The position numbers were made by a program, and so were the translations under genes. From Terriglobia bacterium (lineage in GTDB: Bacteria; Acidobacteriota; Terriglobia; Bryobacterales; Bryobacteraceae), in NCBI GenBank assembly GCA_020073305.1, contig JAIQFK010000015.1, positions 1 through 64,000 on the forward strand: a DNA stretch of 64,000 bases, given 5' to 3'. This document shows, in pieces, positions 19,413 to 34,553 of this stretch. Position 1 is the stretch's first letter. Each line of letters begins with the position of its first letter. The notes under the pieces are model-generated. The model ran no database searches. It saw only the letters and a program-made list of their open reading frames with translations, and was not told where the DNA came from.

Positions 19413-19688
19413 TCAGCTCTGAAATGAGAATCGCGGCGTCAGTTTCATCAGCTTTAACGCTTTGTATGTGCCTACGTTGACGCCTCGCAACACAATCTTG
19501 ACGGCTTTGTCGTCAGCGGCGCCTGCTAACTTCTCCAGCGCCTTGAGCGCATTCGGATCGACACGGTCGACGGAAGTGAAATTCAACACCACCTCGCCAC
19601 CAGCGCCGTCCAGCTTCTCGAGGGCCTCCTGCAAAGCAGGGGCCACGCGCGCTCCATTAATGTCAAGCAACACTGTATTCACTGGCAT
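19413..19688 (-). CDS. Small STAS-like domain protein
   Basis: A 91-residue protein ([20 protein letters not shown]) with the strand-helix pattern of STAS/anti-anti-sigma domains: EALEKLDGAGGEVVLNFTSV, DRVDPNALKALEKLAG, DKAVKIVLRGVNVGTYKALK. The usual phospho-acceptor Ser after the D-x-x-x-x segment is replaced (VDRVDPNALKAL has Asn/Asp there), so classic SpoIIAA-style phosphoswitching is doubtful. It begins inside the 3' end of adhE (26 bp overlap; 35 bp if the ATG at 19697 is used) and is probably translationally coupled to it. Confidence 0.65.
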   Translation of the reverse strand: MPVNTVLLDINGARVAPALQEALEKLDGAGGEVVLNFTSVDRVDPNALKALEKLAGAADDKAVKIVLRGVNVGTYKALKLMKLTPRFSFQS

Positions 19689-22332
19689 GCGCTCCATCCT
19701 TGGCTACTTCTTGTTCAGATACACCGGCCACCTTCGCCACGCCTCGCCCCCGATATGCGGCCCAAAGCAGTTCGGCCAGTTCGTTGATGAGTGGCATGCG
19801 CGGATTCGTCGGCCGCCACGAAGGATCCTCAAAGGCAATCTTGACCAGATCCGGCACCGCTCGTTCGAAGTCTTCTTTCGAAATTCCCAGTGCGGCGATC
19901 GACTTCGGTACCGCCAACCGGTCGAGTAACTCTTCCGTCGCCTCCACCAGGTTGTTCACCTTTTCCTCAACCGTGCTGCCGCCCAGACCCAGCAAGTCCG
20001 CGATCGCCGCGTATTTCTTGTGCGCGGTATACGCTCGCACATGCGGCGACGGCATGAACTTGGTGGGCACTGACGCGTTATACCGGATGACATGCGGCAA
20101 CATGAGCGCGTTCGCCCGGCCGTGTGCCACGCGGAACCGCGCGCCGAAGGCATGTGCCAGCGCGTGATTCACTCCCACCGATGCGTTCGAAAACGCCAGC
20201 GCCGCAATGCACGCGGCGTTGTGCATCATGGTGCGCGCTTCTTCATTCTTGGGCTGTTCATATGCGATGGGCAGGTACTTATACGCCAGTTGAATCGCCT
20301 GCAAGGCGTTGGCATCGGTGTAAGGGGAAGCGTAAACCGAAACCGCGGCTTCGAGTGCGTGGGTCAGGCAGTCGATGCCGGTATCCGCGGTCAGGCCCTT
20401 CGGCATGGACATGACGAACTGCGGATCGACAATCGCCACGTCCGGAGTCAGCGAGTAGTCGGCGAGCGTTACCTTGCGGCCGTGCTCTTTGTCGAACAGA
20501 ACCGCAAACGGCGTGACTTCGCTCCCCGTTCCACTGGTTGTCGAGATGGCAATCAACCGCGCCTGGTTTGTCTTTTCCATTGGGAATTGCACAATGCGCT
20601 TGCGAATATCCAAAAACGGCGCGCCCAGCTCCGCAAGGTCAGCCTGCGGAAATTCGTACTTGAGTTTCATGATCTTCGCCGCGTCGATCACACTCCCGCC
20701 GCCCAGCGCCACGATCTGATCGGCTTTGTAGGAATTGATCGTCTCCAGTCCCTGCATGATGACCGCGGCTTCGGGCTCCGCATCGGGAATGGTGAGAACA
20801 TGGACGAGTGTCTGCTCCGGCAGGTGCCGCCGGACGACGTCTACATGGCCGAATTGCTCCATGGACGGATTGGTGACGATGATCGTCGAGCGCGATGGGA
20901 ATTGGCCCAGCGCCTCCACCGCGTTCATGTTGAAGTAAATTTGATTCGGAACTCGGAACCACATAGGGGCTTGGGTCCTCCTTGCCACGCGTTTGACGTT
21001 TAGATAGTGAAACACATTGACGTTATCCGTGGTGCTGTTGCCGCCGCCGGTCCCGCAGCCAAATGAAAACGTGGGAACCATGTCGTTGTAAACGCCGCCA
21101 ATGGCTCCGATGGATCCTGGCGAATTCACAATCACGCGCCCGGCGTTGATCACCTCGCTGAACTTCCGGATGACTTCATCGTTGCGCGAGAAAACCACAG
21201 CCGTATGCCCGATTCCCCCGGCATGATTCACGTCTACACACACCCGCAGCGCCTCTTCGACGGAATGCGCCCGATAGACCGCCAGCACCGGGAATAGCTT
21301 CTCCACCGACAGCGGATGTTCGCGGCCCACACCTTGAATCGGCGCGATCAAAAGTTTCGTGTCCGGCTTGACGGAAAGACCCACCGCGCGCGCGATATCG
21401 GTGGCTTTCTGCCCGGTGGCCATGGGCCGTGCCATTCCCTTTTCGGAATCAACCAGCATGCGTCCCAGCAATGCCGCCTCGTTCTCATTGCAGATGTGTG
21501 CGCCCAGGTCTGCAAATTTCTTCAGCACGCGGTCATAAATCTCGTCATCCATCACCACCGTCTGCTCCGAGGCGCAAATCGTGCCGTTATCGAACGTTTT
21601 GGAGGTGATGATGTCCACCACCGCCATGTCCAGGTCCGCCGTTTTGTCCAGGTAGACTGGTGTATTCCCCGCCCCGACCCCTAAGGCTGGTTTGCCGGAG
21701 CTATACGCGGCCTTGACCACGCCCCGCCCGCCAGTGGCATCAATCAGCGCGACATCTTTGTGATGCATGAGGTAGGCGTTGTCCGCCAGGGTGGGCGATT
21801 GAATGCACGTAAAAACGCCTTCCGGCGCGCCATGCTTCACCGCCGTCTCATACATGATCCGCATGGCCTCCTGGCAGCAGCGCGCGGCCATCGGGTGGGG
21901 ACCGAAAACGACGGCGTTGCGCGTCTTGATGGCCATGATGCACTTGAACAACACCGTAGACGTGGGGTTGGTAATCGGCAGGAGCGAGAAGATCACCCCG
22001 ATCGGTTCCGCTACCTCCACCAGACCGCGTTCCGGAAATTCACGAATGACGCCGGCGGTACGTTTGTCCCGGACGTAGTTGTAGACAAACTCCGTGGCCA
22101 CCATGTTCTTGATGGCCTTGTCCTCGGGAACGCCGAGCCGGGTCTCCTCAAACGCCATGCGGCCCAGATATTGAGCTTGCTCCATCCCGGCCATGGCCAT
22201 CTGTTTGACGATGCGGTCGACGTCTTCTTGCGTATATTGCGTAAAGACCGCGGCCGCGGTTCGGGCCTGGCTGACTAGTCCTTCCAGGTAAGCAATCCGC
22301 TCTTCACTGAGGCTTGCGCCATTGTCTGGCAT
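19663..22332 (-). CDS. adhE: Bifunctional acetaldehyde-CoA/alcohol dehydrogenase
   Basis: An 889-residue AdhE, the usual length. The N-terminal aldehyde dehydrogenase half carries the CoA-acylating Cys in [14 protein letters not shown]; the linker [20 protein letters not shown] is characteristic; the C-terminal iron-dependent alcohol dehydrogenase half has [29 protein letters not shown] and [20 protein letters not shown] with metal-binding His residues. The enzyme interconverts acyl-CoA, aldehyde and alcohol with NADH and assembles into spirosomes. AGAGGGGG lies upstream of the ATG. Lying before the WS/DGAT gene's 3' end, it could supply alcohols for ester synthesis as well as fermentation; that link is inference. 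Confidence 0.95.
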
Positions 22333-22450
22333 CCGTCTATTCCCCCTCTAAGATAAGTTCAACCAACTTCACGAATCACGTACCCGTCGCTTAGCCGCGA
22401 CCAAAGGAAGCGGAAAGCGCGTTCGCCATCTCGCAATTCCTCTCTGCCCG

Positions 22451-24118
22451 TTACGCAGCGTGCTTGTCGCTCACCCCCAGCGGAGTCTGCGGTGGCGTGT
22501 CGGACGGCGCTTCCGCCTCCGGCTCGGGTGCCACCGCCGGCACCAACTCCGGAAGTTTCGCGATCTCGGTTTTCGCCGCCTCGGTTTTCTTCTGGCGCGG
22601 CTTGCGCGGTGCCGTCTTCACCCCCGCGGCCCGGCGTAGTTCACGGAATGATACGTTGAGGAAATCGCGCAGCCGGTGCACGTCCCGGCCTACTCGAGAA
22701 TCCGCGATGAGTCCGAAAAAGAGCTTTCCGTCATAGCTCTGCACGGCGCAGTTGATGCCCAATTCATAGCCGGTCGGCACCTGCGGATACGACGCAATCA
22801 TCCGCCTCCCGGCCGCATAGAGAGGCGTGGGCGACCCTGGAATGTTGGTACAGATGATATTGAACAGCGGTACGGGCAGCCTCGCCTGCGAAATGCCTTT
22901 CCAGAACAGCGCCTGCAGTGGAGGCGGAGCGGCGGCGATGCAACCTGCCGCCAGTGACACCAGGTCGGCGGCGCCCGAGCGCTTCATGGTCTCCGTCCTG
23001 CTCGAGACGGCCTTCAGCATCCGGACAGGGTCGGTCACATCCAGTGGCAGCGCCACCGGCATGAACGAGATCTGGTTGCCCAACACCCCGTTTTGCTCGC
23101 CTTGCCGCAGACTGACCGGGCAAATGATGCGCACGAATCGGTTGACCACACTTTGATGGTGCCGTTTCAGGTAGCGCGCCAGCGCCCGGGTCAGCACCGC
23201 CAGGATAATGTCATTGACCGTGCCGCCGGCGGCCTTTCGGATGGCCTTCACGTCGGCGAAATCGAACTCCGCCCAGCAGAACTTCCGATCGCCGGCGCAC
23301 AGCTTGTTGAACGGAAGCCTCTCGACGGATACAGCCAGTTCCGGCAGCAAACCGGCAATTCCTTTGAGATCACCCCAGCTCGCATCACTCAAGAGGGCTC
23401 TTGCGAAACCCGCCAGACTCGCTTCGGCGGCGATCACTCCGTCAATAGTGTTCTCGATCACCTTGCCAATGGCCTCCGCCAGCGAGGGTTCCGCCGGCGC
23501 GGTCTTTGATGGTTCAGAGCGCGGCTTGCGCACGGGAGGAAGTGCATTTGGCGTCGCGTCGAACAGCATGTTCAGAATCGCCATTCCCGTTACGCCGTCC
23601 GCCAGCGCGTGATGCACGCGCGCTATCATGGCCCCGCGGCCGTCCTTCAGGCCGTCGATGACGTAAATGTCCCACAGCGGCTTGCTGCGGTCCATCAATT
23701 GGCTGAGGATGCGCCCGGCCAGATCTTCCAGTTCCTCGTCTCCGCCCGGAGGTTCCAGGGTCACGCGAAATATGTGCCGGCGAATGTCGAACTGCGGGTC
23801 GTCCTTCCAGTTCGGGTAGCCGAGATTGTACGGCGTCAGCTCTACGATTTGCGAATAACGCGGAATCAGATGCATCTTCGCCTGGATGCTGGCGACGAAC
23901 TCCTCGAAGGGTATCGGGCCATCAAACACGGTAACCAAGGCCATATGCAAGGGGATTTCCTTGCGCTCAATGTAAAGAAAGGCAGCGTCTACCGCGGACA
24001 AGCGGCGCGCAGCCAGCTCAGTTTTCAGGTCTGCCTGCTCTTGTGCCGCGCGTCGGCGGGCCGCCTTCCCCTTTCCCCCAACGCCGGCGGCCGCCTCTAC
24101 AGGCAACTGGCGTGGCAT
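22451..24118 (-). CDS. Wax ester synthase/diacylglycerol acyltransferase (WS/DGAT)
   Basis: A 555-residue O-acyltransferase that joins acyl-CoA to a fatty alcohol or diacylglycerol. The condensing motif HHxxxDG is present as VHHALADGV (His 169, His 170, Asp 174, Gly 175). RLSAVDAAFLYIE near residue 39 and the C-terminal NIICTNIPGSPTPLY and YELGINCAVQSYDGKLFFGL complete the WES_acyltransf/DUF1298 pair. Extra basic and Ala/Pro/Glu-rich tails stand at both ends (about 1-35 and 500-555), unusual for the family and perhaps used for membrane or granule contact. The gene start overlaps the upstream small gene by 22 bp. Confidence 0.92.
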   Translation of the reverse strand: MPRQLPVEAAAGVGGKGKAARRRAAQEQADLKTELAARRLSAVDAAFLYIERKEIPLHMALVTVFDGPIPFEEFVASIQAKMHLIPRYSQIVELTPYNLGYPNWKDDPQFDIRRHIFRVTLEPPGGDEELEDLAGRILSQLMDRSKPLWDIYVIDGLKDGRGAMIARVHHALADGVTGMAILNMLFDATPNALPPVRKPRSEPSKTAPAEPSLAEAIGKVIENTIDGVIAAEASLAGFARALLSDASWGDLKGIAGLLPELAVSVERLPFNKLCAGDRKFCWAEFDFADVKAIRKAAGGTVNDIILAVLTRALARYLKRHHQSVVNRFVRIICPVSLRQGEQNGVLGNQISFMPVALPLDVTDPVRMLKAVSSRTETMKRSGAADLVSLAAGCIAAAPPPLQALFWKGISQARLPVPLFNIICTNIPGSPTPLYAAGRRMIASYPQVPTGYELGINCAVQSYDGKLFFGLIADSRVGRDVHRLRDFLNVSFRELRRAAGVKTAPRKPRQKKTEAAKTEIAKLPELVPAVAPEPEAEAPSDTPPQTPLGVSDKHAA

Positions 24119-24294
24119 CGTAGTGCCTCTTCCTCGCTCAACCAGTATTCGTCCGCCGTCGGTTCCGAACCGTTCGCCCGTTTCCAGAGTTTGAAGGCCA
24201 GAATGTCCAGTTCCTCCTCCTCAAACCTGGGTGGAGGAGCATCATCCCATTGGGTGACTTCGGCGAGTTCTTCGGCCATCGCTGCTGCTTCCAT
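24097..24294 (-). CDS. Small acidic protein upstream of WS/DGAT
   Basis: A 65-residue protein, strongly acidic (QWDDAPPPRFEEEELDILAF), with a helical end KLWKRANGSEPTADEYWLSE that loosely resembles the DUF2934 pattern. GGAGG is seven bases before its ATG, a better Shine-Dalgarno than most genes here, and it overlaps the WS/DGAT start by 22 bp, so the two are likely coupled. I do not know its function; a regulatory or stabilising partner of the acyltransferase is a guess. Confidence 0.55.
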   Translation of the reverse strand: MEAAAMAEELAEVTQWDDAPPPRFEEEELDILAFKLWKRANGSEPTADEYWLSEEEALRCHASCL

Positions 24295-24524
24295 GACATG
24301 CCTCCTGCCTGATTTAGGTAAAAAGAGCTTATACTCTCGTTTTGCACCGTGGGGCTCCCCCTTCGCGGCCTGAGCGTATACACCCAGCCGGGTCAGTGAT
24401 ACCGCGCCGGGCTCCCCCGATCCGGCCCCTTTTCATGACATTTGGTCCTTAGAGGCTGCGCAGGTGCAATTCTCGTTCCAATGTCGGCAGAGAAAAGTGG
24501 CTTTTTGGCTTGCTGGTGAGTCAC

Positions 24525-24640
24525 TTACTGAAGCTGCTGCGCCGCGCCGTGCTGGAGCAGGCTGGGGACCCACGTCCACGGCCGCAACACCACGACTCCA
24601 GGTCTTGGCCCGTGGGCGGCCCGCCAAACGGCCGTGTCAG
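24525..24640 (-). pseudogene. 3' remnant of a second UbiB/ABC1-like kinase gene
   Basis: On the minus strand the frame ending in TAA at 24525-24527 reads VVVLRPWTWVPSLLQHGAAQ and is preceded by FAPADTAVWRAAHG. The intact UbiB-like kinase at 28004-29653 ends VVLRPWTWVPELLHSRAAQT with LLSPSDW upstream, so this is the tail of a paralogue. A 30-bp identical block (24565-24594 and 28044-28073) lies in the shared WTWVP region. Nothing 5' of about 24640 is recognisable. Confidence 0.6.
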
Positions 24641-24692
24641 CCGGAGCGAACCGCCTGGCTGCTTTTGGCAACTACATTTGGCCCAGTTCAAA

Positions 24693-24750
24693 AGGAAACT
24701 CGGCAGGAAACTGGCAGGAAACTCGGCCAGGAAACTCGAAGGAAACTCGG
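24693..24750. repeat. Short tandem repeat, aggaaactcgg units
   Basis: Five imperfect units of 11-13 bp (aggaaactcggc, aggaaactggc, aggaaactcggcc, aggaaactcga, aggaaactcgg) run directly into the GGGACAG inverted repeat at 24748. Confidence 0.85.
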
Positions 24751-24811
24751 GACAGTACACTCAAATCGGATTTCTGCGAGCGAATAACCGTGTATTGAGT
24801 GTACTGTCCCG
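24748..24811. repeat. Inverted repeat of the GGGACAG family (17-bp perfect arms)
   Basis: cgggacagtacactcaa at 24748-24764 is the exact reverse complement of ttgagtgtactgtcccg at 24795-24811, with a 30-bp loop. The structure could form a hairpin of REP/BIME type; related half-elements occur at 27535-27558 and 27874-27895. Confidence 0.85.
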
Positions 24812-24899
24812 CATTTCCCGCGGGCTGTCCCTGGGTTCTCTCCCGTCCGGGGTTACCGGAGTTCCTGAGTTTACCGCGTCGTGCGTTTCCGCGCTTCGC

Positions 24900-25193
24900 T
24901 CAGCGTCCCCACCTCAATAGCCCGAGGCTCCAGGCGAGAATAGCACACGAGGCAATCATCAGAGCGCCACAGGCCAGCGAGAGGTAAGGAAGCCAGCTCC
25001 TTGGGTAGTATTGGCGATGGTACCTCAGAACCTTTCCGATACCCCAAAAGATGTACGAGATCTGCTCGCTTTCGGGCAGCTTCCGATTAATCTGGCCAAT
25101 CATTACTAACGTCAGCATGTTGGCAGCGATCGCCATGGTGGCACCGATCGCGAGAATCAGCAGGGACCTGACGGAGATTCCGTTCATCGGCAT
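24900..25193 (-). CDS. Small membrane protein, candidate immunity protein of the Rhs tip
   Basis: A 97-residue protein with hydrophobic segments at about 8-31 (LLILAIGATMAIAANMLTLV) and about 68-91 (LPYLSLACGALMIASCAILA), separated by a basic loop. Its start overlaps the end of the Rhs tip frame by 10 bp, in the position where Rhs immunity genes stand. Function by position only: a membrane immunity protein would suit a toxin acting on the membrane. No family recognised. Confidence 0.6.
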   Translation of the reverse strand: MPMNGISVRSLLILAIGATMAIAANMLTLVMIGQINRKLPESEQISYIFWGIGKVLRYHRQYYPRSWLPYLSLACGALMIASCAILAWSLGLLRWGR

Positions 25194-26375
25194 GCCTGCT
25201 GCGCTACGAACAAGAATTGGTCGAGAGGGTCTGCGAGGAGTGGCCAGTATTTTCCGAGCTGCTGTGGCGCCGTGTAGCCCGTTTGTGAAATCGTAGCTCC
25301 ATAGCGTCCGACCAGGCTTGCACCAACGCCGCCCCCAACCGCTCCCACGCCGTTGCCGGCCCCTGATGTCAAACCCATTCCCGACACCTCAGGCACGGGA
25401 GTAGGAACTGAGACCGCCACCGTGGTGAACCCACCTTTGTAACCGCTGTTGTCGGCGCCGAGCGGTCCAGAAATGAAGCCCGAATAAACAGAACCTTGCG
25501 CAATCCCATTCCAGCCGAACTGCAGACCGCCGAACTCGAATAGGCTAGCCTGTCCTGAACTATAGTTGAATACTAGCTCCACACCCCCAGTCTGCCCTCC
25601 AATACCGCCAACTCCACCACTAGCGCCGAACGTGCGACCTTGGGGAAGGTTTGCACAAATCGCATTCTTGACCTTTTGCACAGGTCCCGTTGGCTTTCCG
25701 CCCCCACCACCTCCGCCCCCGCCACCACCGCCACTCGGATGGGGTCCACCGCTCCCGCCTGACGAACAGAGATACGGCAACCACTTACAGATCCAGCCCG
25801 GATCGCAGGGTGAAGCCGTGAGGGTATTAGTGGTTGGATCCCAAGTATCCGGGTCTCCGCACCCCAGCCCGCTCGGATCCGTCAGCACTGTCGGCGTGTC
25901 CCGCACGTACGGGTACCGGTTCCACGTCTGCGGGTCGGTGATATCCACCGCCGCTAAGCCCGCCGGATCGGGAGAAATCCAGCGGCCCTGCACCGGATGC
26001 AGCTCGCGCGCCGGGAAGTCCCACAGGTCGCTGGCGAGTGTGATGCGCTGGTTGGTGAAGTTCATCTGCGGCGATCCGCCGGATGCGTAGATGTAGCCAT
26101 AGGGCGACACGGCGGCAGAACCCAGGTACGTCCCATCCGGCGCCGTGGCCAGCCGCGTGCTGCCCAGCCAGTCGGCATGCCGGATGGCAAGGAACCCGCT
26201 GCTGGAATAACTCGCCTGGCTCTGGCCCGGCAGTTGAATCAATCCGCGTGAGAGCGTTTGCCCGTTCATGGCCGCCCGCCGCCAGCCCACCGGGTCCCAG
26301 ACCATCTGCGTGCTCGCGCCGCTTGAGGGTACTTGCTCCACCCGGCGGCCCAGGGCATCGTAGGTGCTCACGACA
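25184..26375 (-). pseudogene. Orphan Rhs C-terminus: partial core plus variable tip
   Basis: From 26375 leftward the frame gives Rhs core sequence (STYDALGRRVEQVPSSG, ADWLGSTRLATAPDGTYLGS, QGRWISPDPAGLAAVDITDP) ending at the core boundary RYPYVRDTPTVLTDPSGLG near 25870. The following 229 residues are the variable tip: a Cys/Trp segment (WICKWLPYLCSSGG), a run of twelve Gly, then a Gly/Ser-rich, weakly hydrophobic domain ending FVAQQACR. The 5' part of the gene is absent: homology starts abruptly at 26375 and no start codon or secretion region belongs to it. The tip toxin activity is not recognisable; its Gly-rich amphipathic look could suit membrane insertion. Confidence 0.7.
26146..26375. 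repeat. 230-bp perfect direct repeat, copy 1 (Rhs core)
   Basis: Identical, as far as I can read it, to 27127-27356 at an offset of 981 bp. It encodes the Rhs core segment from ADWLGSTRLA back to VVSTYDALGR. Both ends of the identity are abrupt. Confidence 0.93.
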
Positions 26376-26629
26376 TTGGCCCTCCTCGCTGTTATTCCGC
26401 AATGCCAAGTCCGTCCCCAGCTTGAGCAATGCGAGTTGGATGATCGAAAGGGACAGACCGGTGTGTCCACGGATCGGCATTCGCGAAGGAGTCACTTCAG
26501 GCTGTCCCCTTCGCTCCGAACGCAGCGCCGGAGCCGGAGCGGAGCCCTGCGCAGCGGAGCGGAGGCGGAGGCGCGGTCGCCGATGCGGCTGCTTGATCTA
26601 ACCAACTATGTCAGATCAAGTCTGAGCTA
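26376..26629. other. Non-coding stretch between Rhs fragment and DUF4288 gene
   Basis: About 250 bp holding a low-complexity GC-rich purine block (around 26520-26580, built from ggagc/cggag units) and two GGGACAG-like pieces (ggctgtcccc near 26492, gggacagacc near 26450). No gene is supportable. It marks the junction where the second Rhs core copy was joined. Confidence 0.4.
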
Positions 26630-27073
26630 TTACAGTTTAGGCTCTTGCTCGATCAGTCTGATGGCGTCGTTCAAAACGTCCTTTGAACTATAATTGGGGC
26701 AATCGATTGCGTCGTCCCGGTCCCGAAATAAATCCAGTTCTTCCTTAGGACGGACCCATTTGAGAATCTCCTCTTCTCCGACAGAAATTCTTCTTTCATA
26801 GAGTAATTCGGCACCATCCTCCAGATCATCGTGGATGACATTCAGATAACTTACACCTCGAAAATGTGACGTCACGTTCTTGCCATCTGGATTCAAATAT
26901 GAACTTTCTGATTGACTCCCTATCTCCAAACATCGTGCATAAGCTGCCTCCGGAGAGTCTGCGTGAATCAACAGAAGGTTCTTATGAACAACATTCCTAT
27001 TGTCGTCCTCAATACAGATTTCCTCGATGATCTCCGCTATGTACCATTGAGCGCCCTGCGGGATATAGACCAC
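26630..27073 (-). CDS. DUF4288-like protein, candidate Rhs immunity protein
   Basis: A 147-residue acidic protein, WYIAEIIEEICIEDDNRNVV, then NLLLIHADSPEAAYARCLEI and FRGVSYLNVIHDDLEDGAEL. This matches my memory of DUF4288, a small alpha/beta family often found near polymorphic-toxin loci. It lies 33 bp downstream of a broken Rhs core fragment whose tip is missing, so it may be the surviving immunity gene of a deleted tip. Its A/T-richer composition contrasts with core genes. Confidence 0.62.
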   Translation of the reverse strand: MVYIPQGAQWYIAEIIEEICIEDDNRNVVHKNLLLIHADSPEAAYARCLEIGSQSESSYLNPDGKNVTSHFRGVSYLNVIHDDLEDGAELLYERRISVGEEEILKWVRPKEELDLFRDRDDAIDCPNYSSKDVLNDAIRLIEQEPKL

Positions 27074-27106
27074 AGCATCTCCTTCAAAATTGACGGTAAA
27101 ATCTTA

Positions 27107-27520
27107 TTACATTCCTCGTGATCGCCTGGCCAGCCGCGTGCTGCCCAGCCAGTCGGCATGCCGGATGGCAAGGAACCCGCTGCTGGAATAACTCGCCTGG
27201 CTCTGGCCCGGCAGTTGAATCAATCCGCGTGAGAGCGTTTGCCCGTTCATGGCCGCCCGCCGCCAGCCCACCGGGTCCCAGACCATCTGCGTGCTCGCGC
27301 CGCTTGAGGGTACTTGCTCCACCCGGCGGCCCAGGGCATCGTAGGTGCTCACGACAGTCCCATTATCCAACGACGCCAGGTTGCCGTCGGCATCCCACTG
27401 GTAGTCGTGAAAACCATCATACGTGAGCTGGCCGTTGGCATCGTAGGTGGGCGTGGCCGCGGGAAGCGTAGCGAACTGGTTGGTAGCGGTGTTGTAGGTC
27501 GGCTGGAACGAAGCCAGATT
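27107..27520 (-). pseudogene. Rhs core fragment lacking a tip
   Basis: Rhs YD-repeat sequence (NLASFQPTYNTATNQFATLP, YDANGQLTYDGFHDYQWDAD, GNLASLDNGTVVSTYDALG) runs from about 27520 to ADWLGSTRLA and then breaks into unrelated sequence, stopping at 27107. It includes 27127-27356, the perfect duplicate of the core part of the 25184-26375 fragment, plus about 160 bp of additional upstream core. No 5' end exists in the window, so it cannot make a full Rhs protein. Confidence 0.75.
27127..27356. repeat. 230-bp perfect direct repeat, copy 2 (Rhs core)
   Basis: Duplicate of 26146-26375. The complete identity suggests recent duplication or continuing gene conversion between the two Rhs fragments. 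Confidence 0.93.
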
Positions 27521-27534
27521 CTCAGAAACCGCGT

Positions 27535-27558
27535 TTGAGTGTACTCTCCCGAGTTTCC
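27535..27558. repeat. GGGACAG-family half element, left of 92-aa membrane gene
   Basis: ttgagtgtactctcccgag followed by tttcc resembles the right arm at 24795-24811 with one visible change. With 27874-27895 it forms an imperfect inverted pair around the gene at 27571-27849. Confidence 0.65.
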
Positions 27559-27570
27559 TAGTTAAGTCCA

Positions 27571-27849
27571 TCAAAGAATTCGCAGAACCTTTAGCAAGAG
27601 ATAGAGGCTGCCTAGGCCAAACATAAACAAGATGTAGCCAGCTATTCGGCCGCCTAACCCCTGAATACTTTGTCCCCATTCGGCGCTTCTTGCGTAATAA
27701 TCGCCAATGGCTATTCGCCGGTAGATTCGAACGAATGCAGCAGGACTGATCGCCAAGAGTGCTCCTGCACAAATCATGGTTACTGCTGCAAGTGTAAGGC
27801 AAACGATAAGTCCTATCGGCGGCATTGCCGTTCTCAGAAAGCTCGACAC
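27571..27849 (-). CDS. Small membrane protein of unknown function
   Basis: A 92-residue protein with hydrophobic segments at about 10-34 (IGLIVCLTLAAVTMICAGAL) and about 68-90 (GGRIAGYILFMFGLGSLYLL). No family recognised. It stands upstream of the Rhs core fragments in the same direction and is enclosed by inverted GGGACAG-type half elements, like the gene at 614-985. It may be a third orphan immunity gene, but that rests on position only. Confidence 0.5.
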   Translation of the reverse strand: MSSFLRTAMPPIGLIVCLTLAAVTMICAGALLAISPAAFVRIYRRIAIGDYYARSAEWGQSIQGLGGRIAGYILFMFGLGSLYLLLKVLRIL

Positions 27850-27873
27850 CAGGAATAAGTTACTGCACCGGTC

Positions 27874-27895
27874 GTTTCGGGGACAGTTTACTCAA
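27874..27895. repeat. GGGACAG-family half element, right of 92-aa membrane gene
   Basis: gtttcggggacagtttactc followed by aa; its reverse complement begins ttgagtaaactgtccccg, matching the left element in inverted orientation with a few differences. Confidence 0.65.
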
Positions 27896-28003
27896 TCACC
27901 ATTGCGCCTCACCGATCGCGATTGCGCAACCGCTACGACACTAGGGTTCGTTCTGCCATGCGGAGGCGGATCAGTTCTCGTAGGCGCTGAACCTGAGACG
28001 CTC

Positions 28004-29653
28004 TCACTGCGCGGTTTGCGCCGCCCGACTGTGCAGCAGCTCCGGGACCCACGTCCACGGCCGCAACACCACGCGCGCACCCATGCGGGAGGCGAACGTC
28101 ATAGCGCTCCAGTCGAGCGCCATCCAGTCGCTGGGCGAAAGCAGTGAGAACAAGGCCGTGCAGGTTGCCGCCCAGTGCTCGAGCGCATAGCGCGTGATCG
28201 CAGAGTCCATGCGAATGCTGGATCCCGCGATATCTTCTAACACGCCATCCAGCGTGAACGAGGCCTTGCGGAACATGAGCAATGCGGCTGGAAACCGTAC
28301 TCCCTCCATGGCAATCTCATCCAGCAGACGCATCGCGCCCATGGCGGCCGGCACCTCAAACAGGGGCAGCGCGTCCAGAAAGCGCTTGACGTGCTCGCGC
28401 ACAATGCGTGTTTGCTCTTGATCCTCAGCGGCGTGACGCTGGCGCAGACGCTCTACCGCCCCGCATGCGCCATCGACATCTCGCAAAATCATCATGAGCA
28501 CAAGCATCAGTACGTTTTTGCGTTGCGCGCGGGTGAGGTGTTCGGTCAGAGCCCAGTCCAGGATCACCAGCTCTCCGCGCCGCTTGTCGTAGAGCAGATT
28601 GCCCGCATGCGGATCCGCATGAAAAACGGCGTCCTTGTCCCGGGTCAGCGCGGGGATGGCGATGAGGACCTCGGCCAGTCGCTCCGCAACGGAGGCACGG
28701 TCCGTGTCCGCCCGGCCCAGGGCCTCGGTGACTTTCACCCCGCTCTCCTGGGTCAGGGCCGTGATGATGTCGGTGGAGAGCGGCTCAATCAGCCGTGGCA
28801 CGCGAACTCCCGGGACGGAGCGATACATCTGTAGCGCGTTTAGCAGCGTCGTCTGTTCCCCGCGGAAGTCCACTTCGCGCTCCAGCAGAAGCCGGATTTC
28901 GGTAAGCGTCTCGGCCAAGCCGCCTAAACGCACACCACCAGCCCGGTGCTTGCGCGCCAGATATCCGGCGAGGTGCTGAAGGATCTTCATGTCCTCCGCA
29001 TAACAGCTCGGGATGTAGGGCTTCAAAACCTTGAACACGCCGCGCTCGCGCCGCCCGCTTTCCGGGTTGCGCCAGGTGAAACGCACCACCGCACTGACGC
29101 TGGCCTCGCAGAGGATAGCTGAGTCAATCTCGACGGCGTACTTGGCAAGTTGCGGCCGCAACTGTTGGACGATGATCGCGCGAATCTCGTTGATGCTCAC
29201 GTCCGAGATCCCGTTCTCTAACTCGGAGAGGGCTCGCCGCACCCGCGGATCGAGCTTGCGGTTGCGCGCCAGCACCTGGCCGATCTTCTGCAGCCCGGGC
29301 ACTTTCGCAATGAATCGCAGCAGCCGCGCTTCTGGAGGCGTATCCGCCGCCAGTTCCATCTGCTCCACGACTTTGGGGGCCAGGCGGTTGGCGGCAAGCC
29401 GGGATACCACGAACCCCATCGCGTCCCGCACCAAAGGCCGCCACCGGCGGTACTCCTCGGGAACCAGCAGATCCACCGGCACCATGCGCACGGTCCACTT
29501 TCCCAGCTCGTCGCGCCAGAACTTGCCGGCCGCGCTGCCGAGTGCGGCTTCGATGGCGCTGATCCGCGCGGCTGTGGTTTTGTAACCGTGCAGAAACGGT
29601 CCCAAAGCCTCCTGCAGCTCATCCGTCTCGATCTTTATTCGGTGGTGCTCCAC
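28004..29653 (-). CDS. UbiB/ABC1 (aarF)-family atypical kinase
   Basis: A 549-residue protein-kinase-like ATPase. It has the family's KxGQ region (LQKIGQVLARNRKLDPR), a nucleotide loop equivalent (EASVSAVVRFTW in place of the Ala-rich AAASIxQVH), Lys in GVFKVLKPYI, the catalytic FHADPHAGNLLYD and the metal motif as ILDWALTEHL where most members have IDFG. These substitutions make it a divergent member. UbiB-family ATPases act in lipid and quinone handling at membranes. The GTG at 29651-29653 is chosen because AGGAGG is four bases upstream; the frame is open 39 codons further. It starts 20 bp after the hydrolase gene ends, suggesting one operon. Confidence 0.82.
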   Translation of the reverse strand: MEHHRIKIETDELQEALGPFLHGYKTTAARISAIEAALGSAAGKFWRDELGKWTVRMVPVDLLVPEEYRRWRPLVRDAMGFVVSRLAANRLAPKVVEQMELAADTPPEARLLRFIAKVPGLQKIGQVLARNRKLDPRVRRALSELENGISDVSINEIRAIIVQQLRPQLAKYAVEIDSAILCEASVSAVVRFTWRNPESGRRERGVFKVLKPYIPSCYAEDMKILQHLAGYLARKHRAGGVRLGGLAETLTEIRLLLEREVDFRGEQTTLLNALQMYRSVPGVRVPRLIEPLSTDIITALTQESGVKVTEALGRADTDRASVAERLAEVLIAIPALTRDKDAVFHADPHAGNLLYDKRRGELVILDWALTEHLTRAQRKNVLMLVLMMILRDVDGACGAVERLRQRHAAEDQEQTRIVREHVKRFLDALPLFEVPAAMGAMRLLDEIAMEGVRFPAALLMFRKASFTLDGVLEDIAGSSIRMDSAITRYALEHWAATCTALFSLLSPSDWMALDWSAMTFASRMGARVVLRPWTWVPELLHSRAAQTAQ

Positions 29654-29672
29654 GGTACCTCCTGCCGGAGGG

Positions 29673-30434
29673 TTACTGCCCGGCCAAACGGCGGGCGACA
29701 AGACTATAGACAATGGGGCTGAATACGAGGCCGATGTGTGTGGCGGAGACTTCAAAATCCACGCTCTCATCGCCCGTCTGGCAAACCTTCCAATCCAGAA
29801 TGCCGTCTGTCTTGGTGTAGATGGCGGTCTCCCGCACGGATCTGGGAAACTGCCCCTTCAGCGATTCGAGGAACCTGCACGTGCACGAGCCGGTGTAGCA
29901 GTCCGGTAGCACCTTCTTGCCGTTCCTTTCCAGGATCTGCTTCCTCACCAGTTCGGCGGTGTTGAGGATGGCAGAGTGGGCAATAACACCCCGCAGCGGC
30001 GCACCCAACGTGATCACCGAAGCGATGCGATCGGGCTTCTGTGATGCGAACGAACGGGCGATCGTACCCCCCAAACTGTGGCCAATCAGGTGGATCTTTC
30101 TGCCGGTGGATTCGTAGGCCTTTTGGATGGCCTCATCCAAGCGCTGCCGGATCAACAGATTCGGGCACTCCGCGTTTAGGCCAATGCCGGAGTAATAGGT
30201 TTCGTAGCCGATCCGGCGAAGCCAGGTGCGGAATTCACCCAAGTAGAAATCCGTGCCCAGAAAGCCCGGAACCACCACCACGCCCGACCCATCCCCGCGG
30301 GGAACGCCGTGCCCCCAGTAAACCGGTGAAATCCGGAGGAAAGCCATCTCAACACCGACCAGCAGCTCCTGCCAGATCGGCAACGGCACGGCTTCATACT
30401 CCTCTTGCATTACGAGGCGGCGACGTGGCCTCAT
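29673..30434 (-). CDS. Alpha/beta hydrolase (lipase/acyltransferase-like)
   Basis: A 253-residue protein with nucleophile elbow GHSLGG (Ser 120), the preceding strand RKIHLI, an oxyanion region VVVVPGFLGTD, and a late His in VSATHIGLV that could complete the triad. Four Cys cluster near residues 187-195 (DCYTGSCTCRF), unusual for a cytosolic enzyme. There is no signal peptide. It starts the unit that continues with the UbiB-like kinase. An A-tract followed by TATATA upstream (30470-30495) looks like its promoter. In-frame ATG at 30410 is an alternative start. Lipid ester substrate is likely but unproved. Confidence 0.75.
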   Translation of the reverse strand: MRPRRRLVMQEEYEAVPLPIWQELLVGVEMAFLRISPVYWGHGVPRGDGSGVVVVPGFLGTDFYLGEFRTWLRRIGYETYYSGIGLNAECPNLLIRQRLDEAIQKAYESTGRKIHLIGHSLGGTIARSFASQKPDRIASVITLGAPLRGVIAHSAILNTAELVRKQILERNGKKVLPDCYTGSCTCRFLESLKGQFPRSVRETAIYTKTDGILDWKVCQTGDESVDFEVSATHIGLVFSPIVYSLVARRLAGQ

Positions 30435-30588
30435 TCTTGTCCAGTTTACCCAACGCCACCTCTGTTACAAATATATAAACCCCTTTTTTTTGAGAGTACT
30501 AGAACTCACCGGCCGCCGCCAGCCCTCGCCGCCGAAGCGGAAAGGGCCGGCGCGGGGGAGTGCGGCCGGATGCCCGTGTTTCGGCGCG

Positions 30589-31473
30589 CTATTTCTTGCG
30601 CCTCGGGCGAGTCGCCTTTGGAGCCCCGTTCTTGGCCGTTGCTTTCATCGGCTTCATGGCGAGGTCCATCAGAGCTTTCTGAGCCGTCACCACATTGTGA
30701 ACGCTCTTTTGCGTCACTTCGGCGAAAGAGGTAGTCGGTTCCGCGTGGGTTGCGGCAGGCTCGGGCTTGCTGGCCTCCTCCAACTGATGGATGGCCAGGT
30801 TCAGGAGCTTTTTCTGTGCATCGATATATTTCTCAACGCCTTCCCGCGCCATCTCGGTCAGGACCTTCGTCCGGGCCCGGGTGGGCTTGTGCCCCTCCTT
30901 GACGTTCTTGGTGGCGGCGGTCACCTCTTCGGCAGCCAAGTCGAGGAACTTCTTCTCGGTTTCGATGAAACCTTCAATTCCCTGCCGCGCCAGTTCAGCG
31001 GCGCTCTTGCCGGCCGCTGTCAATCCGTTGCCCTCTTTGTAAGATTCGGCGACGGTGTGGGTTTGCTCGGCAGCCGCATCCAGCAGATTCTTCTGCATGT
31101 GGATGAGCGTGTCCACCCTGTGCCGTACCACGTCGACCATGGCAGCAGCGGGCACGGGAAGGCGCAGGCCCTCCTTGACTCCATCCACCATCAGGGCGGC
31201 CTCGCCGGACGCTAAGTCCAGCAGAATCTTCCCCGCGGAGGTGAAGTTTTCGATGCCCTTGTCGGCAACTTTGGCGATCATAAGGTCCGGCCGGAAAGTA
31301 GGCTGGCTTAGACGTTCGCGGATGACTCCGACAGCCAGCGCATTTTGGTGAGCCGTAAGATCCAGCAAGATCTTTTGTGCGGCGACGAAACTTTCAATCC
31401 CTTGTCGAGCCCAACCCGCCAGCCGGCCTGCCGGCGAGAGGTCTCGAGAAGTGGCTTGTTCTGTAGCAGGCAT
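30589..31473 (-). CDS. Phasin-like protein with six internal repeats
   Basis: A 294-residue, Ala/Lys-rich, wholly helical protein. A unit of roughly 40-55 residues recurs six times, each with the core Q/K-G-I/V-E-x-F-x-x-A-Q-K-x-L-L-D-L: QGIESFVAAQKILLDLTA, KGIENFTSAGKILLDLAS, HRVDTLIHMQKNLLDAAA, QGIEGFIETEKKFLDLAA, EGVEKYIDAQKKLLNLAI, KSVHNVVTAQKALMDLAM. Phasins are normally single-unit (about 110-190 residues), so this is an internally multiplied version. The tail is basic (ATRPRRKK). Phasins coat polyester granules and lipid droplets. It is divergent from phaR, with a PhaR-type palindrome between them. ATG 31473 is chosen over 31488 because the protein-like sequence starts there. Confidence 0.75.
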   Translation of the reverse strand: MPATEQATSRDLSPAGRLAGWARQGIESFVAAQKILLDLTAHQNALAVGVIRERLSQPTFRPDLMIAKVADKGIENFTSAGKILLDLASGEAALMVDGVKEGLRLPVPAAAMVDVVRHRVDTLIHMQKNLLDAAAEQTHTVAESYKEGNGLTAAGKSAAELARQGIEGFIETEKKFLDLAAEEVTAATKNVKEGHKPTRARTKVLTEMAREGVEKYIDAQKKLLNLAIHQLEEASKPEPAATHAEPTTSFAEVTQKSVHNVVTAQKALMDLAMKPMKATAKNGAPKATRPRRKK

Positions 31474-31498
31474 GTTTACTCTCCTCAATCCTTGCGGT

Positions 31499-31515
31499 AT
31501 ACTGCAGTGCAGTAT
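31499..31515. promoter_or_regulatory. Palindrome resembling a PhaR binding site
   Basis: atactgcagtgcagtat is a perfect 17-bp palindrome around a central g. Its core ctgcagtgcag fits CTGC-N3-GCAG, the TGC-rich motif I recall for PhaR/AniA regulators. It lies between the divergent phasin-like gene (start 31473) and phaR (start 31589), about 25 bp upstream of the phasin start. Confidence 0.7.
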
Positions 31516-31588
31516 CCGAAATGAGTATACGGCTCCTGTTTCAGGCTGTCAAGGTAAATCAGATCTGATTCTCTGTACGGGAGAACAC

Positions 31589-32158
31589 ATGAGCAAGCCC
31601 AGTGTTGTCATCAAAAAATACGGGGACCGGCGCTTGTACGATTCGAGCGCCAGCCGTTATGTGAAGCTCGAGGACATTGCGAAAATGATCCGCGACGGGA
31701 TCGACGTGCAGGTGGTGGACGCCCGCACCGGAAACGATTTGACCTCCATGGTCTTGACCCAGATCGTTATGGAGAATGCCCGCGATCAGGAGACCGCGCT
31801 GCCGCTGCAACTCCTGCGCCAGCTGGTCACGGCGTCCGACCAGGCCACGCATGATTTTCTCTCGTGGTATCTGAACAGCACGTTCGATCTGTATCAGAAG
31901 GCTCAACAGGCTGCCGCGACAGGTTCGGAGAAACTTCGCACGGGAATTTCCGAGGCCAAGAGCGCGGTAACCAGCCCGCTCGAATACGTGCGCAACCTGC
32001 TGGGGAGCCGGCCGTGGCCGCCCACGCCGGCGCAGGCGCCGACGCCGGACACGAGCGAAACCGAAACACTTCGCCGCCGCATCGAAGAACTGGAGGCGCG
32101 CCTGGCCCAGCCGGCGAAACCTGCGCGCCGCGAAGCCAAGCGGAAGCGCAAGGCGTGA
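31589..32158 (+). CDS. phaR: PHA accumulation regulator (PhaR/PhbR)
   Basis: A 189-residue protein. The N-terminal DNA-binding domain is unmistakable: VIKKYGDRRLYDSSASRYVK, LEDIAKMIRDGIDVQVVDAR, TGNDLTSMVLTQIVMENA. The PHB_acc domain follows (LPLQLLRQLVTASDQATHDF, YLNSTFDLYQKAQQAA), then a Pro-rich linker and a helical, basic tail (RRRIEELEARLAQP). PhaR represses phasin genes and is released on binding to nascent polyester. Start ATG 31589 follows ACGGGAGAACAC, with GGGAG seven bases before. No PHA synthase gene is visible in the window. Confidence 0.9.
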   Translation: MSKPSVVIKKYGDRRLYDSSASRYVKLEDIAKMIRDGIDVQVVDARTGNDLTSMVLTQIVMENARDQETALPLQLLRQLVTASDQATHDFLSWYLNSTFDLYQKAQQAAATGSEKLRTGISEAKSAVTSPLEYVRNLLGSRPWPPTPAQAPTPDTSETETLRRRIEELEARLAQPAKPARREAKRKRKA

Positions 32159-32180
32159 TTCGAAAATCCGTCCCGATTCC

Positions 32181-34553
32181 GTGATGGCAAGCTGGCAAGC
32201 CCATTTCGTGAGTTTCGTGCTGCGGCACACGTTCAAGCGGAGGCTCGCGCGCGCGAAGGACGCCCTAAAGGCGCGCGCCATTCTGAACCTCAATTGGTTC
32301 AAGACTCCCGCGGACGTTCGCATTGCGCAGGAGACGCTCGGAGGGATTCCCGGCGAATGGGTCGAGGGCGAATCGAGGCCAAGCGCCGCGGTGCTGCTCT
32401 ACTTACACGGCGGCGGTTACTTTGCGTGCTCGGCGCGGACGCATCGCGCTTTCACAACCGCCTTCGCCAGGCAGGGATTCAAAGTCTTCGCACCCAATTA
32501 CAGGCTGGCTCCGGAGAATCCTTTCCCGGCGGCCGTGATGGACGCCGTGGCGGCGTATCGCGCGGTTCGCGCAGAAACCGGCGCATCGACGCCGATGGTC
32601 ATCGCCGGCGATTCGGCGGGCGGCGGTCTGGCGCTGGCGACGCTACTCAAGCTGCGTGACGAAGGGGATGCGCTGCCCGTCGCGGCGGCGCTCTTTTCGC
32701 CTCTGACGGACCTTGCCGGCAGAGGGAAATCGCGCGAGACCAACGACAAGCGCTGCGCGATGTTTCACGCGAAAGGCCTGGCGCGCGGGGCGGGGTTCTA
32801 CCTATGTGGCGCAGATCCGCGCGACCCTATGGCATCTCCTCTTTATGCCGACCTGCGAGGTCTGCCGCCCATGCTGATCCATGTTGGCAAGGACGAGACC
32901 CTGCTGGATGATTCGACCGAGTTGGCCGAGCGCGCCCGCGCCGACGGCGTGCCGGTGGAGTTAAAGGTTTGGGATGCCGTCCCGCACGTGTGGCAGTTGT
33001 TTCATTACTTCGTGCCCGAGGGCGGCCAGTCGCTCGCCGAGGCGGCGGCATTTTTGAAAACGATGGCCGCTCCGGCGAACGGGAGCGGCGGGTTGCCGAC
33101 AAACGTCGACGTTCTCATTGTCGGTAGTGGATTTGCGGGACTCTGCATGGCGATCCAACTGCGCCGGGCGGGGATGGATTCGTTCCTGATCCTCGAGCGC
33201 GCAGCGGATATCGGCGGCACGTGGCGGGACAACACCTATCCCGGCTGCGCTTGCGACATTCCGTCACACCTGTACTCTTTCTCGTTCGAGTGCCATGCGG
33301 ATTGGACGCGCATGTACCCGACGCAGCCGGAGATCTGGAATTACCTGAAGCACTGCGTCGAGAAGTACAATCTGGGCCCGTCGATCCGCTTCGGAAGCGA
33401 AGTTCGCGAGGCGGTGTTTGACGAAGGCGCGCATCTCTGGCGCGTCGAAACTCTAGATGGCGCGACTTTCACCGCCCGCTCCGTGGCGCTGGCGATGGGC
33501 CCGCTCAGCCGGCCGGCGTACCCACGGATTCCCGGTCTGGAGCGCTTCCAAGGGCGCGCGTTCCATTCCGCCGAGTGGGATCATTCCTGCGATCTCCGCG
33601 GAAAACGCGTGGCGGTGATCGGAACCGGCGCCAGCGCGATCCAGTTCATCCCGCAGATTGCTCCTGAAGTGGATCAACTTCACGTGTTCCAGCGCACGCC
33701 GCCGTGGATCACGCCCAAGATGGACCGGCCGATCCGCCGCTGGGAGCGTTCTCTGTTCCGGTGTGCACCGGGCTACATGTGGCTGTTCCGGAAACTTCTC
33801 TACTGGCGCCAGGAAGTGCTGGCGGTGGGATTCACCGGAAATCTGAAATTCATGAAGCGCATCGAGCAGTTTGCGCGGAAGCACATCACGAAGAGCATCC
33901 CGGATGCGGCGCTTCGCGAGAAAGTGACGCCGGACCACCTGATCGGCTGCAAGCGAATTCTGATTTCGAACGATTATTACCCGGCGCTGGGCCGCGCGAA
34001 CGTCGAGCTGGTCACCGAAAGCATTACTGAAGTGCGTGAACACAGCATCGTGACGGTGGACGGCAAGGAGCGTGCCGTCGACGCGCTGATTTACGGCACG
34101 GGTTTCCGGGCGACTGACCTGCTGACGCCGGTGCGCATCCTGGGGCGGAACGGCATCGATCTCAACGACGCCTGGCGCGACGGTTTCGAAGCTTATTTCG
34201 GAATCACGATTACGGGATATCCGAACCTGTTCATGCTGGTGGGGCCGAACACCGGGCTCGGGCACAATTCGATCGTGTTCATGATTGAGGCGCAGGTGAA
34301 CTACGTGATGAGTTGCCTCGAACTGCTGCGCAAAAAGGGCGCGGCGGCGATGGATCTGCGGCCGGAAGTGCAGGCCGAATTCAATCGCGGCCTCCAGGAG
34401 CGGATGAAGCGGACCGTGTGGGCGTCGGGGTGCAAGAGCTGGTACCTGGACGCGAACGGGAAGAACACGACGCTGTGGCCGGGATTTTCGTTTAAGTACT
34501 GGATGGAGACGAGGAAAGTGGCGGGGCGGGATTATGCGTTTTGGGCGGAGTGA
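32181..34553 (+). CDS. Fused esterase (HSL family) and Baeyer-Villiger-type flavin monooxygenase
   Basis: A 790-residue two-enzyme protein. Residues about 60-295 are a hormone-sensitive-lipase-family hydrolase: oxyanion HGGGYF at 75-80, nucleophile GDSAGG (Ser 144), acid in GKDETLLDD (Asp 237) and His 268 in VPHVWQLF, so the triad is complete. After a short Gly/Pro linker, residues about 308-790 are a class B flavin monooxygenase: FAD motif VGSGFAG, the Baeyer-Villiger fingerprint FQGRAFHSAEWD, NADPH motif VIGTGASAIQFIP, and YGTGFRATDLL. Numbering is from the ATG at 32184; a GTG at 32181 is also in frame. The monooxygenase would turn ketones to esters and the esterase could hydrolyse them. 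Substrate unknown. Confidence 0.9.
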   Translation: MMASWQAHFVSFVLRHTFKRRLARAKDALKARAILNLNWFKTPADVRIAQETLGGIPGEWVEGESRPSAAVLLYLHGGGYFACSARTHRAFTTAFARQGFKVFAPNYRLAPENPFPAAVMDAVAAYRAVRAETGASTPMVIAGDSAGGGLALATLLKLRDEGDALPVAAALFSPLTDLAGRGKSRETNDKRCAMFHAKGLARGAGFYLCGADPRDPMASPLYADLRGLPPMLIHVGKDETLLDDSTELAERARADGVPVELKVWDAVPHVWQLFHYFVPEGGQSLAEAAAFLKTMAAPANGSGGLPTNVDVLIVGSGFAGLCMAIQLRRAGMDSFLILERAADIGGTWRDNTYPGCACDIPSHLYSFSFECHADWTRMYPTQPEIWNYLKHCVEKYNLGPSIRFGSEVREAVFDEGAHLWRVETLDGATFTARSVALAMGPLSRPAYPRIPGLERFQGRAFHSAEWDHSCDLRGKRVAVIGTGASAIQFIPQIAPEVDQLHVFQRTPPWITPKMDRPIRRWERSLFRCAPGYMWLFRKLLYWRQEVLAVGFTGNLKFMKRIEQFARKHITKSIPDAALREKVTPDHLIGCKRILISNDYYPALGRANVELVTESITEVREHSIVTVDGKERAVDALIYGTGFRATDLLTPVRILGRNGIDLNDAWRDGFEAYFGITITGYPNLFMLVGPNTGLGHNSIVFMIEAQVNYVMSCLELLRKKGAAAMDLRPEVQAEFNRGLQERMKRTVWASGCKSWYLDANGKNTTLWPGFSFKYWMETRKVAGRDYAFWAE

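Follow-up and report, generated by a model that had tools for sequence, protein, structure and literature searches.

A candidate neutral-lipid droplet gene cluster with a PhaR-family regulator in an Acidobacteriota genome

We examined a 64,000-nucleotide stretch of DNA from a Terriglobia bacterium of the order Bryobacterales (phylum Acidobacteriota; contig JAIQFK010000015.1), hereafter the window. Within it, a gene for PhaR, a regulator currently defined by its role with polyhydroxyalkanoate (PHA), lies divergent from a minus-strand run of genes for a phasin-like protein, an alpha/beta hydrolase, a UbiB-like kinase, a wax ester synthase/diacylglycerol acyltransferase (WS/DGAT), and an aldehyde-alcohol dehydrogenase (adhE). 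All coordinates refer to the whole stretch, and the genome that carries it is G000 in our genome set. A first-pass annotation made from the sequence had named these genes and described an intact HHxxxDG motif in WS/DGAT, six repeats in the phasin-like protein, a remnant of a UbiB gene beside WS/DGAT, and an Rhs island interrupting the run. Profile matches and translations recovered every named gene in place, and each of these details was confirmed. Starting with phaR and then following the transcription order of the minus strand, the features are as follows.

31589–32158, plus strand: phaR, divergent from the phasin-like gene, with KKYGDRRLYD (the Asp variant) in its translation (PF07879, 9.6e-26)
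31524–31552, minus strand: predicted phasin promoter TTGACA-17-TATACT, with the operator just downstream
31500–31514, strandless: candidate operator TACTGCAGTGCAGTA (plus-strand letters), a CTGCNNNGCAG site, from pattern searches
30589–31473, minus strand: six-unit phasin-like protein, ATG at 31473 (repeat cores; relatives)
29673–30434, minus strand: alpha/beta hydrolase, lipase-like, with GHSLG (Pfam; model and fold search)
28004–29770, minus strand: UbiB/ABC1-like kinase (PF03109, 8.7e-25)
27107–27802 and 25184–26470, minus strand: two Rhs fragments (TIGR03696, PF05593), which interrupt the run and lie outside the system
24528–24593, minus strand: leftover 3′ end of a UbiB-like gene, some 410 bp ahead of WS/DGAT on its upstream side (tblastn, 22 amino acids at 73%, E 4e-4; 59 bp at 85%, E 6e-9)
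22451–24118, minus strand: WS/DGAT acyltransferase, with HHALADG in its translation (TIGR02946, 365.9 bits, cut-off 309.95; PDB 6chj and 7nxg by sequence)
19663–22332, minus strand: adhE, bifunctional aldehyde-alcohol dehydrogenase, about 107 bp downstream of WS/DGAT (NF010378, 1133.5 bits, cut-off 951)

The longest UbiB-like frame overlaps the hydrolase gene, so its true start probably lies near 29656; the relative in JOPF066 has 554 amino acids. At that locus (L003), phaR is divergent from phasin, hydrolase, UbiB-like, unknown-frame, and WS/DGAT genes in that order, with no Rhs island. The simplest reading would be an ancestral phasin-hydrolase-UbiB-WS/DGAT-adhE run that was later split by the island. 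The two Rhs fragments themselves have 235 bp in common at 99.6% identity (26141–26375 versus 27123–27356), a sign of recent duplication inside the island.

The encoded proteins were examined for family membership and conservation. The DNA-binding domain of the window PhaR (PHB_acc_N, PF07879) scored 90.1 bits, above the cut-off of 25. In the phasin-like protein, six core copies begin at residues 29, 77, 123, 169, 216, and 261, as located by a pattern devised once the sequence was known, and for five of its six helices the hydrophobic moment exceeds that of 95% of shuffles. Its predicted structure consists of six helices at low confidence (predicted local distance difference test [pLDDT] score, 63.7), and a fold search with this low-confidence model returned no match at E ≤0.001. 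Among 27 relatives, 8 match a Pfam phasin model at E ≤0.05 (best, 3.2e-5), and the phasin genes of loci that encode the PHA synthase PhaC are related at 28 to 33% by BLAST or search. Hydrolase relatives are 46 to 74% identical and keep GHSLG in 34 of 36 frames; the hydrolase model (pLDDT, 82.6) is nearest in fold to monoglyceride lipase and bacterial lipases, with TM-scores of about 0.5. The WS/DGAT motif HHxxxDG is kept in 47 of 50 WS/DGAT frames, and the window protein has both this motif and a TIGR02946 score above the cut-off. The H-D-H-GN motif occurs in 31 of 33 UbiB-like proteins. The window representative carries the ABC1 domain and falls below the cut-off of the UbiB equivalog model TIGR01982 (99.2 versus 487.55 bits), and phmmer found no match to it among PDB sequences.

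To determine how broadly this arrangement is conserved, we compared the neighborhoods of 40 PhaR loci in the order, namely, all 39 PF07879 matches of the order set and JOPF066. Loci were called lipid-type when they combined PhaR and phasin with one or more of the WS/DGAT, hydrolase, and UbiB-like genes within 9 kb. By this definition, 27 loci were lipid-type, 4 were PhaC-type, 2 had phasin alone (one of them on a 3.6-kb contig), and 7 carried a divergent PhaR-like protein. The lipid-type loci included WS/DGAT in 15 cases, hydrolase in 19, UbiB-like in 18, and adhE in 3, a count that excludes the window adhE because it lies just beyond 9 kb. None of the four PhaC-type loci had WS/DGAT, hydrolase, or UbiB-like genes nearby. 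Outside the order, 40 further loci, a subset of the PhaR matches in the phylum set described below, were divided into 10 lipid-type, 8 PhaC-type, 8 with WS/DGAT and no recognised phasin, and 14 with none of these. In family f4 of the same class, perhaps one of the Acidobacteriales, the compact set occurs with the same upstream site in G520, G377, and G329, and G465 has the set with WS/DGAT on a separate contig. Six of the 37 lipid-type loci (27 plus 10) include adhE, in several arrangements: in G377 and G329 it precedes WS/DGAT by about 200 bp, in the window it lies downstream of WS/DGAT, and in G232, G240, and G175 it adjoins UbiB, not WS/DGAT. Gene order is reshuffled among relatives and cluster membership is kept; PhaR, a multi-unit phasin-like protein, WS/DGAT, the UbiB-like protein, the hydrolase, and sometimes adhE remain linked across genera and in another family of the class.

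Two other genes recur in these neighborhoods, at L124, L125, L022, L115, L130, L021, and other loci. A leuA-like gene is present in six lipid-type loci, and in the order set 8 of 33 WS/DGAT genes have a succinic-semialdehyde-dehydrogenase-like gene no more than 3 kb away. HMGL and ALDH neighbors were considered as special lipid enzymes and rejected, since their scores point to 2-isopropylmalate synthase and succinic semialdehyde dehydrogenase.

The region between phaR and the phasin gene contains a conserved candidate operator. It is a 15-bp palindrome, TGCTGCAnTGCAGCA or TACTGCAnTGCAGTA, upstream of phaR and facing phasin. When the 300 bp upstream of phaR were inspected in the order set, a site of the CTGCNNNGCAG form was detected in 33/33 phasin-linked loci and 0/7 phasin-less loci, and 27 of the 33 sites are identical to one of the two palindromes; a cruder distance rule counted a site in 24 of the 27 lipid-type loci. 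According to the available passages of a study of Rhodobacter sphaeroides (PMC12542648), the PhaR site of that organism is CTGCNNNGCAG, which is contained in the palindrome, and such a site lies at the window phasin promoter (31500–31514). When the whole genome was searched with the 13-bp pattern RCTGCANTGCAGY, only three places matched (the window divergon, a phaC divergon on contig C22, and the end of a malate synthase gene), and the reversed control matched none. Outside phaR loci, the site stands ahead of a phasin-WS/DGAT pair in G072, G212, and G214, the last two of the same genus, with no phaR on the stretch read. All six f4 loci examined have it; it was not found in the PhaC-type locus G451 or in six phasin-WS/DGAT loci of other classes. 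The idea that every WS/DGAT gene has a site of its own was ruled out by site searches in the own genome and relatives. The third exact site (L020:10529–10541; G000:C22:286528–286540), at the malate synthase gene end and just ahead of a frame for a tetratricopeptide repeat protein, could be a chance occurrence or could link PhaR with the glyoxylate shunt.

We then asked how often PhaR, WS/DGAT, and PhaC occur together. The order set comprised 257 genomes, in which PhaR was defined by PF07879, full WS/DGAT by at least 170 bits, and full PhaC by more than 300 bits. WS/DGAT counts include G001, whose gene runs off the end of a contig, and G204, whose gene is split; 6 of 30 genomes with WS/DGAT matches, at 19 to 29 bits in frames of 1214 to 3728 amino acids, were not counted (G040, G045, G139, G174, G220, and G222), nor were 22 of 26 with PhaC matches of 18 to 25 bits to part of the model. 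PhaR was detected in 35 genomes, full WS/DGAT in 24, and full PhaC in 4. Every genome with full WS/DGAT has PhaR (24/24, versus 11/233 of the others; Fisher p 1e-25, uncorrected for kinship), as do all four PhaC genomes, and 23 of the 24 lack a full PhaC match, the own genome being the only one with both. The 24 genomes represent 15 genera by tool labels; in 14 of them, PhaR and WS/DGAT lie on one contig, on opposite strands and within about 8.2 kb, and in 10 they lie on separate contigs. Some listed members of genera g1, g24, g72, and g73 have neither gene. In the phylum set (396 genomes sampled evenly; full WS/DGAT at 150 bits or more, after exclusion of 16 of the 74 matching genomes, which reached at most 62 bits), PhaR was present in 57/58 full-WS/DGAT genomes versus 29/338 others. 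The sole exception, G589, is 74% complete. Judged by coordinates, PhaR and WS/DGAT share a contig and are no more than about 8.2 kb apart in 19 of these 58 genomes, one of which is the own genome.

No PHA synthase gene lies at the window locus, as the first-pass annotation had noted. The whole-genome search that it had proposed did find one: contig C22 carries a phaR gene divergent from genes for a small phasin (106 amino acids), a PhaE-like protein (129 amino acids), and PhaC (354 amino acids), the last being the sole PhaC match of the genome (TIGR01836, 324 bits, below the cut-off of 365.3). "No phaC" is therefore true of the window and false for the genome. The C22 divergon has its own PhaR-type site and lies near isocitrate lyase and malate synthase genes. 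Contamination was rejected as a source of C22: in tetranucleotide distance it is 0.112 from the window, and parts of the window are 0.106 to 0.142 from each other. The genome also encodes a second full WS/DGAT (L025:8629–10515, on G000:C8), and no cluster gene among those tested was found within 3 kb of it. A complete phaCAB operon elsewhere, combined with a lack of conserved linkage of WS/DGAT to phasin or UbiB genes in relatives, was what the first-pass annotation had named as fatal to its proposal. Only half of this was found: the phaE-phaC pair exists on C22, and the linkage is conserved in relatives.

The two divergons of this genome differ in both regulator and site. Three genomes (G000, G108, and G032) have two phasin-linked PhaRs, and in each of them one divergon has TAC half-sites and the other TGC. 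The window pair is Asp/TAC and the C22 pair Asn/TGC, the residue being that at the Asn position of KKYxNRRLYD. Across 40 of the 79 PhaRs in our tree (rows from other classes and unclassified loci were left out beforehand), this position is Asp in all five PhaRs of the TAC type and Asn in the remaining 35, of which 34 have TGC sites; for the last one (G451), no site was found. The five TAC-type PhaRs form one clade (97/90), and the Asp/TAC change is therefore one event. From their sequences, the two pairs look as if insulated from each other. The tree, rooted at the midpoint, includes 79 of 80 PhaR rows (G514 was left out). Seven PhaC-type PhaRs (G000, G044, G064, G108, G340, G451, and G496) form one clade (100/98) that sits among lipid-type PhaRs at weaker forks (87/29 and 91/84). 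The PhaC-type PhaR of G307 stands beside a separate group (95/89) made up of seven lipid-type PhaRs from other classes. The partner of PhaR, polymer or lipid, has probably switched more than once and, under a midpoint root, may have switched in either direction.

Together, these results suggest that the window locus is likely a neutral-lipid droplet gene cluster under the control of a PhaR-family repressor. The central idea of the first-pass annotation, that PhaR and a multi-unit phasin have been recruited to a neutral-lipid system, thus gains support from the conserved linkage, the scarcity of PhaC in WS/DGAT genomes, and the PhaR-type site at the phasin promoter. In the mechanism we propose, WS/DGAT would make wax ester, triacylglycerol, or both. 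The resulting droplets would be coated by the six-unit amphipathic phasin-like protein, and the lipase-like hydrolase and UbiB-like kinase would act in turnover or lipid handling. PhaR would bind the palindrome that closely follows the phasin −10 hexamer and repress phasin together with the co-directional, presumably co-transcribed genes beyond it. Once neutral lipid is present, PhaR would shift to the droplet surface and free the coat gene, as with PHA granules, such that coat and accessory proteins would be produced in proportion to lipid. This scheme carries over the titration model of PhaR and PHA granules, as set out in passages of two papers (PMC12542648 and PMC3570403). Available portions of other reports describe compatible behavior: the PHA phasin PhaP1, expressed in organisms that make triacylglycerol inclusions, binds to these (PMC6273058), the contact of PhaR with polyhydroxybutyrate is non-specific and hydrophobic by a title cited in PMC3570403, and Rhodococcus droplets sequester the repressor MLDSR (PMC5504291).

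Several observations weigh against this interpretation. The window PhaR scores below the cut-off of the NCBI equivalog TIGR01848 (100.8 versus 109.45 bits), and no granule-binding PHB_acc domain was listed in it at E values up to 1. The phasin-like protein misses the Pfam phasin models (Phasin_2, 12.8 versus 24.9 bits; none at E 0.05), and the whole-genome pattern search placed no exact site at a WS/DGAT gene of the own genome. The co-occurrence counts ignore kinship among genomes. G108 has a PhaR-phasin-UbiB unit and PhaC with no WS/DGAT match, and G177 and G234 (84% and 83% complete) likewise carry the divergon with no WS/DGAT match. Finally, PhaC often adjoins PhaR in other classes (G469, G440, and G307), which makes the phylum-wide figure less clean than that for the order.

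Three other explanations were weighed. The window PhaR and phasin-like protein could serve PHA granules made by the C22 PhaC, with WS/DGAT an incidental neighbor: the genome does have phaE-phaC, PhaR and phasins are known from PHA, and the G108 unit coexists with PhaC. We consider this unlikely, given the absence of a full PhaC match from nearly all WS/DGAT- and PhaR-bearing genomes of the order (23/24), the PhaR, phasin, and site that the PhaC locus has of its own, and the difference between the two PhaR/site pairs. It is slightly less probable still that the function of the cluster is the handling of membrane lipids or quinones, the UbiB-like protein and hydrolase being central and storage secondary. 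Plastoglobules provide the parallel, UbiB-like genes outnumber WS/DGAT genes in the lipid-type neighborhoods (18 versus 15 of 27), and G108, G177, and G234 do without a WS/DGAT match; however, PhaR accompanies WS/DGAT in all 24 genomes, the HHxxxDG motif is nearly always kept, and in several phasin-WS/DGAT loci (G145, G215, and G243) the UbiB-like gene is not near PhaR. Chance clustering combined with shared ancestry, with no functional unit, appears very improbable. The patchy distribution (24/257 genomes) and the lack of kinship correction are in its favor, whereas the site is conserved at the phasin promoter and before phasin-WS/DGAT pairs lacking phaR on other contigs, membership persists through reshuffling of gene order, and four genera include members with neither PhaR nor WS/DGAT.

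Under the favored interpretation, a PhaR-controlled lipid-droplet cluster, the stored lipid may be triacylglycerol or wax ester. The position of adhE beside WS/DGAT suggests alcohol supply. A more speculative and rather doubtful extension is that PhaR is a general hydrophobic-inclusion sensor in Acidobacteriota, for both lipid droplets and PHA, and that the store here is an alkyl ester: AdhE would reduce acyl-CoA or acetyl-CoA to alcohol, and WS/DGAT would esterify it, giving wax or alkyl esters of short chain length. Such a wax-ester fermentation in a bacterium would store reducing power at low oxygen, and genomes with two divergons would keep insulated Asp/TAC and Asn/TGC pairs. Wax-ester fermentation is known in Euglena, as described in part of PMC5647427.

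Three known systems resemble the locus in part. As in the PhaR-PhaP systems of PHA granules (Cupriavidus, Paracoccus, Rhodobacter, and Sinorhizobium; passages of PMC12542648), a PhaR-family gene, a phasin-like gene, and a CTGCNNNGCAG phasin-promoter site are present; the enzyme here, in contrast, is WS/DGAT with hydrolase, UbiB-like, and adhE genes, and a full PhaC match is missing from most of the order's carriers. The MLDS/MLDSR system of Rhodococcus lipid droplets pairs a droplet coat protein with a repressor sequestered by droplets (PMC5504291, in part), as proposed for the window locus. MLDSR shares an operon with MLDS, whereas the window phaR is divergent, and the available text of that report mentions neither phasin nor PhaR. 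WS/DGAT clusters from sediment metagenomes have a lipid gene context, and one scaffold has a putative phasin; PhaR and ABC1 go unmentioned in the main text (PMC10351704). A link between PhaR and WS/DGAT was not found in the titles, abstract beginnings, and some passages of open-licence PMC literature, which is weak evidence of absence.

If the proposed control is correct, the titration switch would sense hydrophobic inclusions generally and be swappable between polymer and lipid stores. PhaR alone would then be no ground for inferring PHA, and many PhaR-annotated genes would gain a function. The locus offers a testable lipid-droplet control circuit in soil bacteria and a candidate operator-specificity residue, the Asp/Asn position of KKYxNRRLYD.

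Two further observations concern the surroundings and relatives of phaR. A fusion of a hormone-sensitive-lipase-like domain with a flavin monooxygenase (32181–34553) is encoded on the same strand, starting 22 bp beyond phaR; no relative of it was found among the PhaR neighborhoods of the order set. The divergent, shorter PhaR-like type (L134, L135, L136, L137, L138, L140, and L023) is 31 to 46% identical and has no phasin, cluster genes, or CTGCNNNGCAG site nearby; its upstream regions contain a recurring AACGCAnnGCGTCA-like motif, seen by eye.

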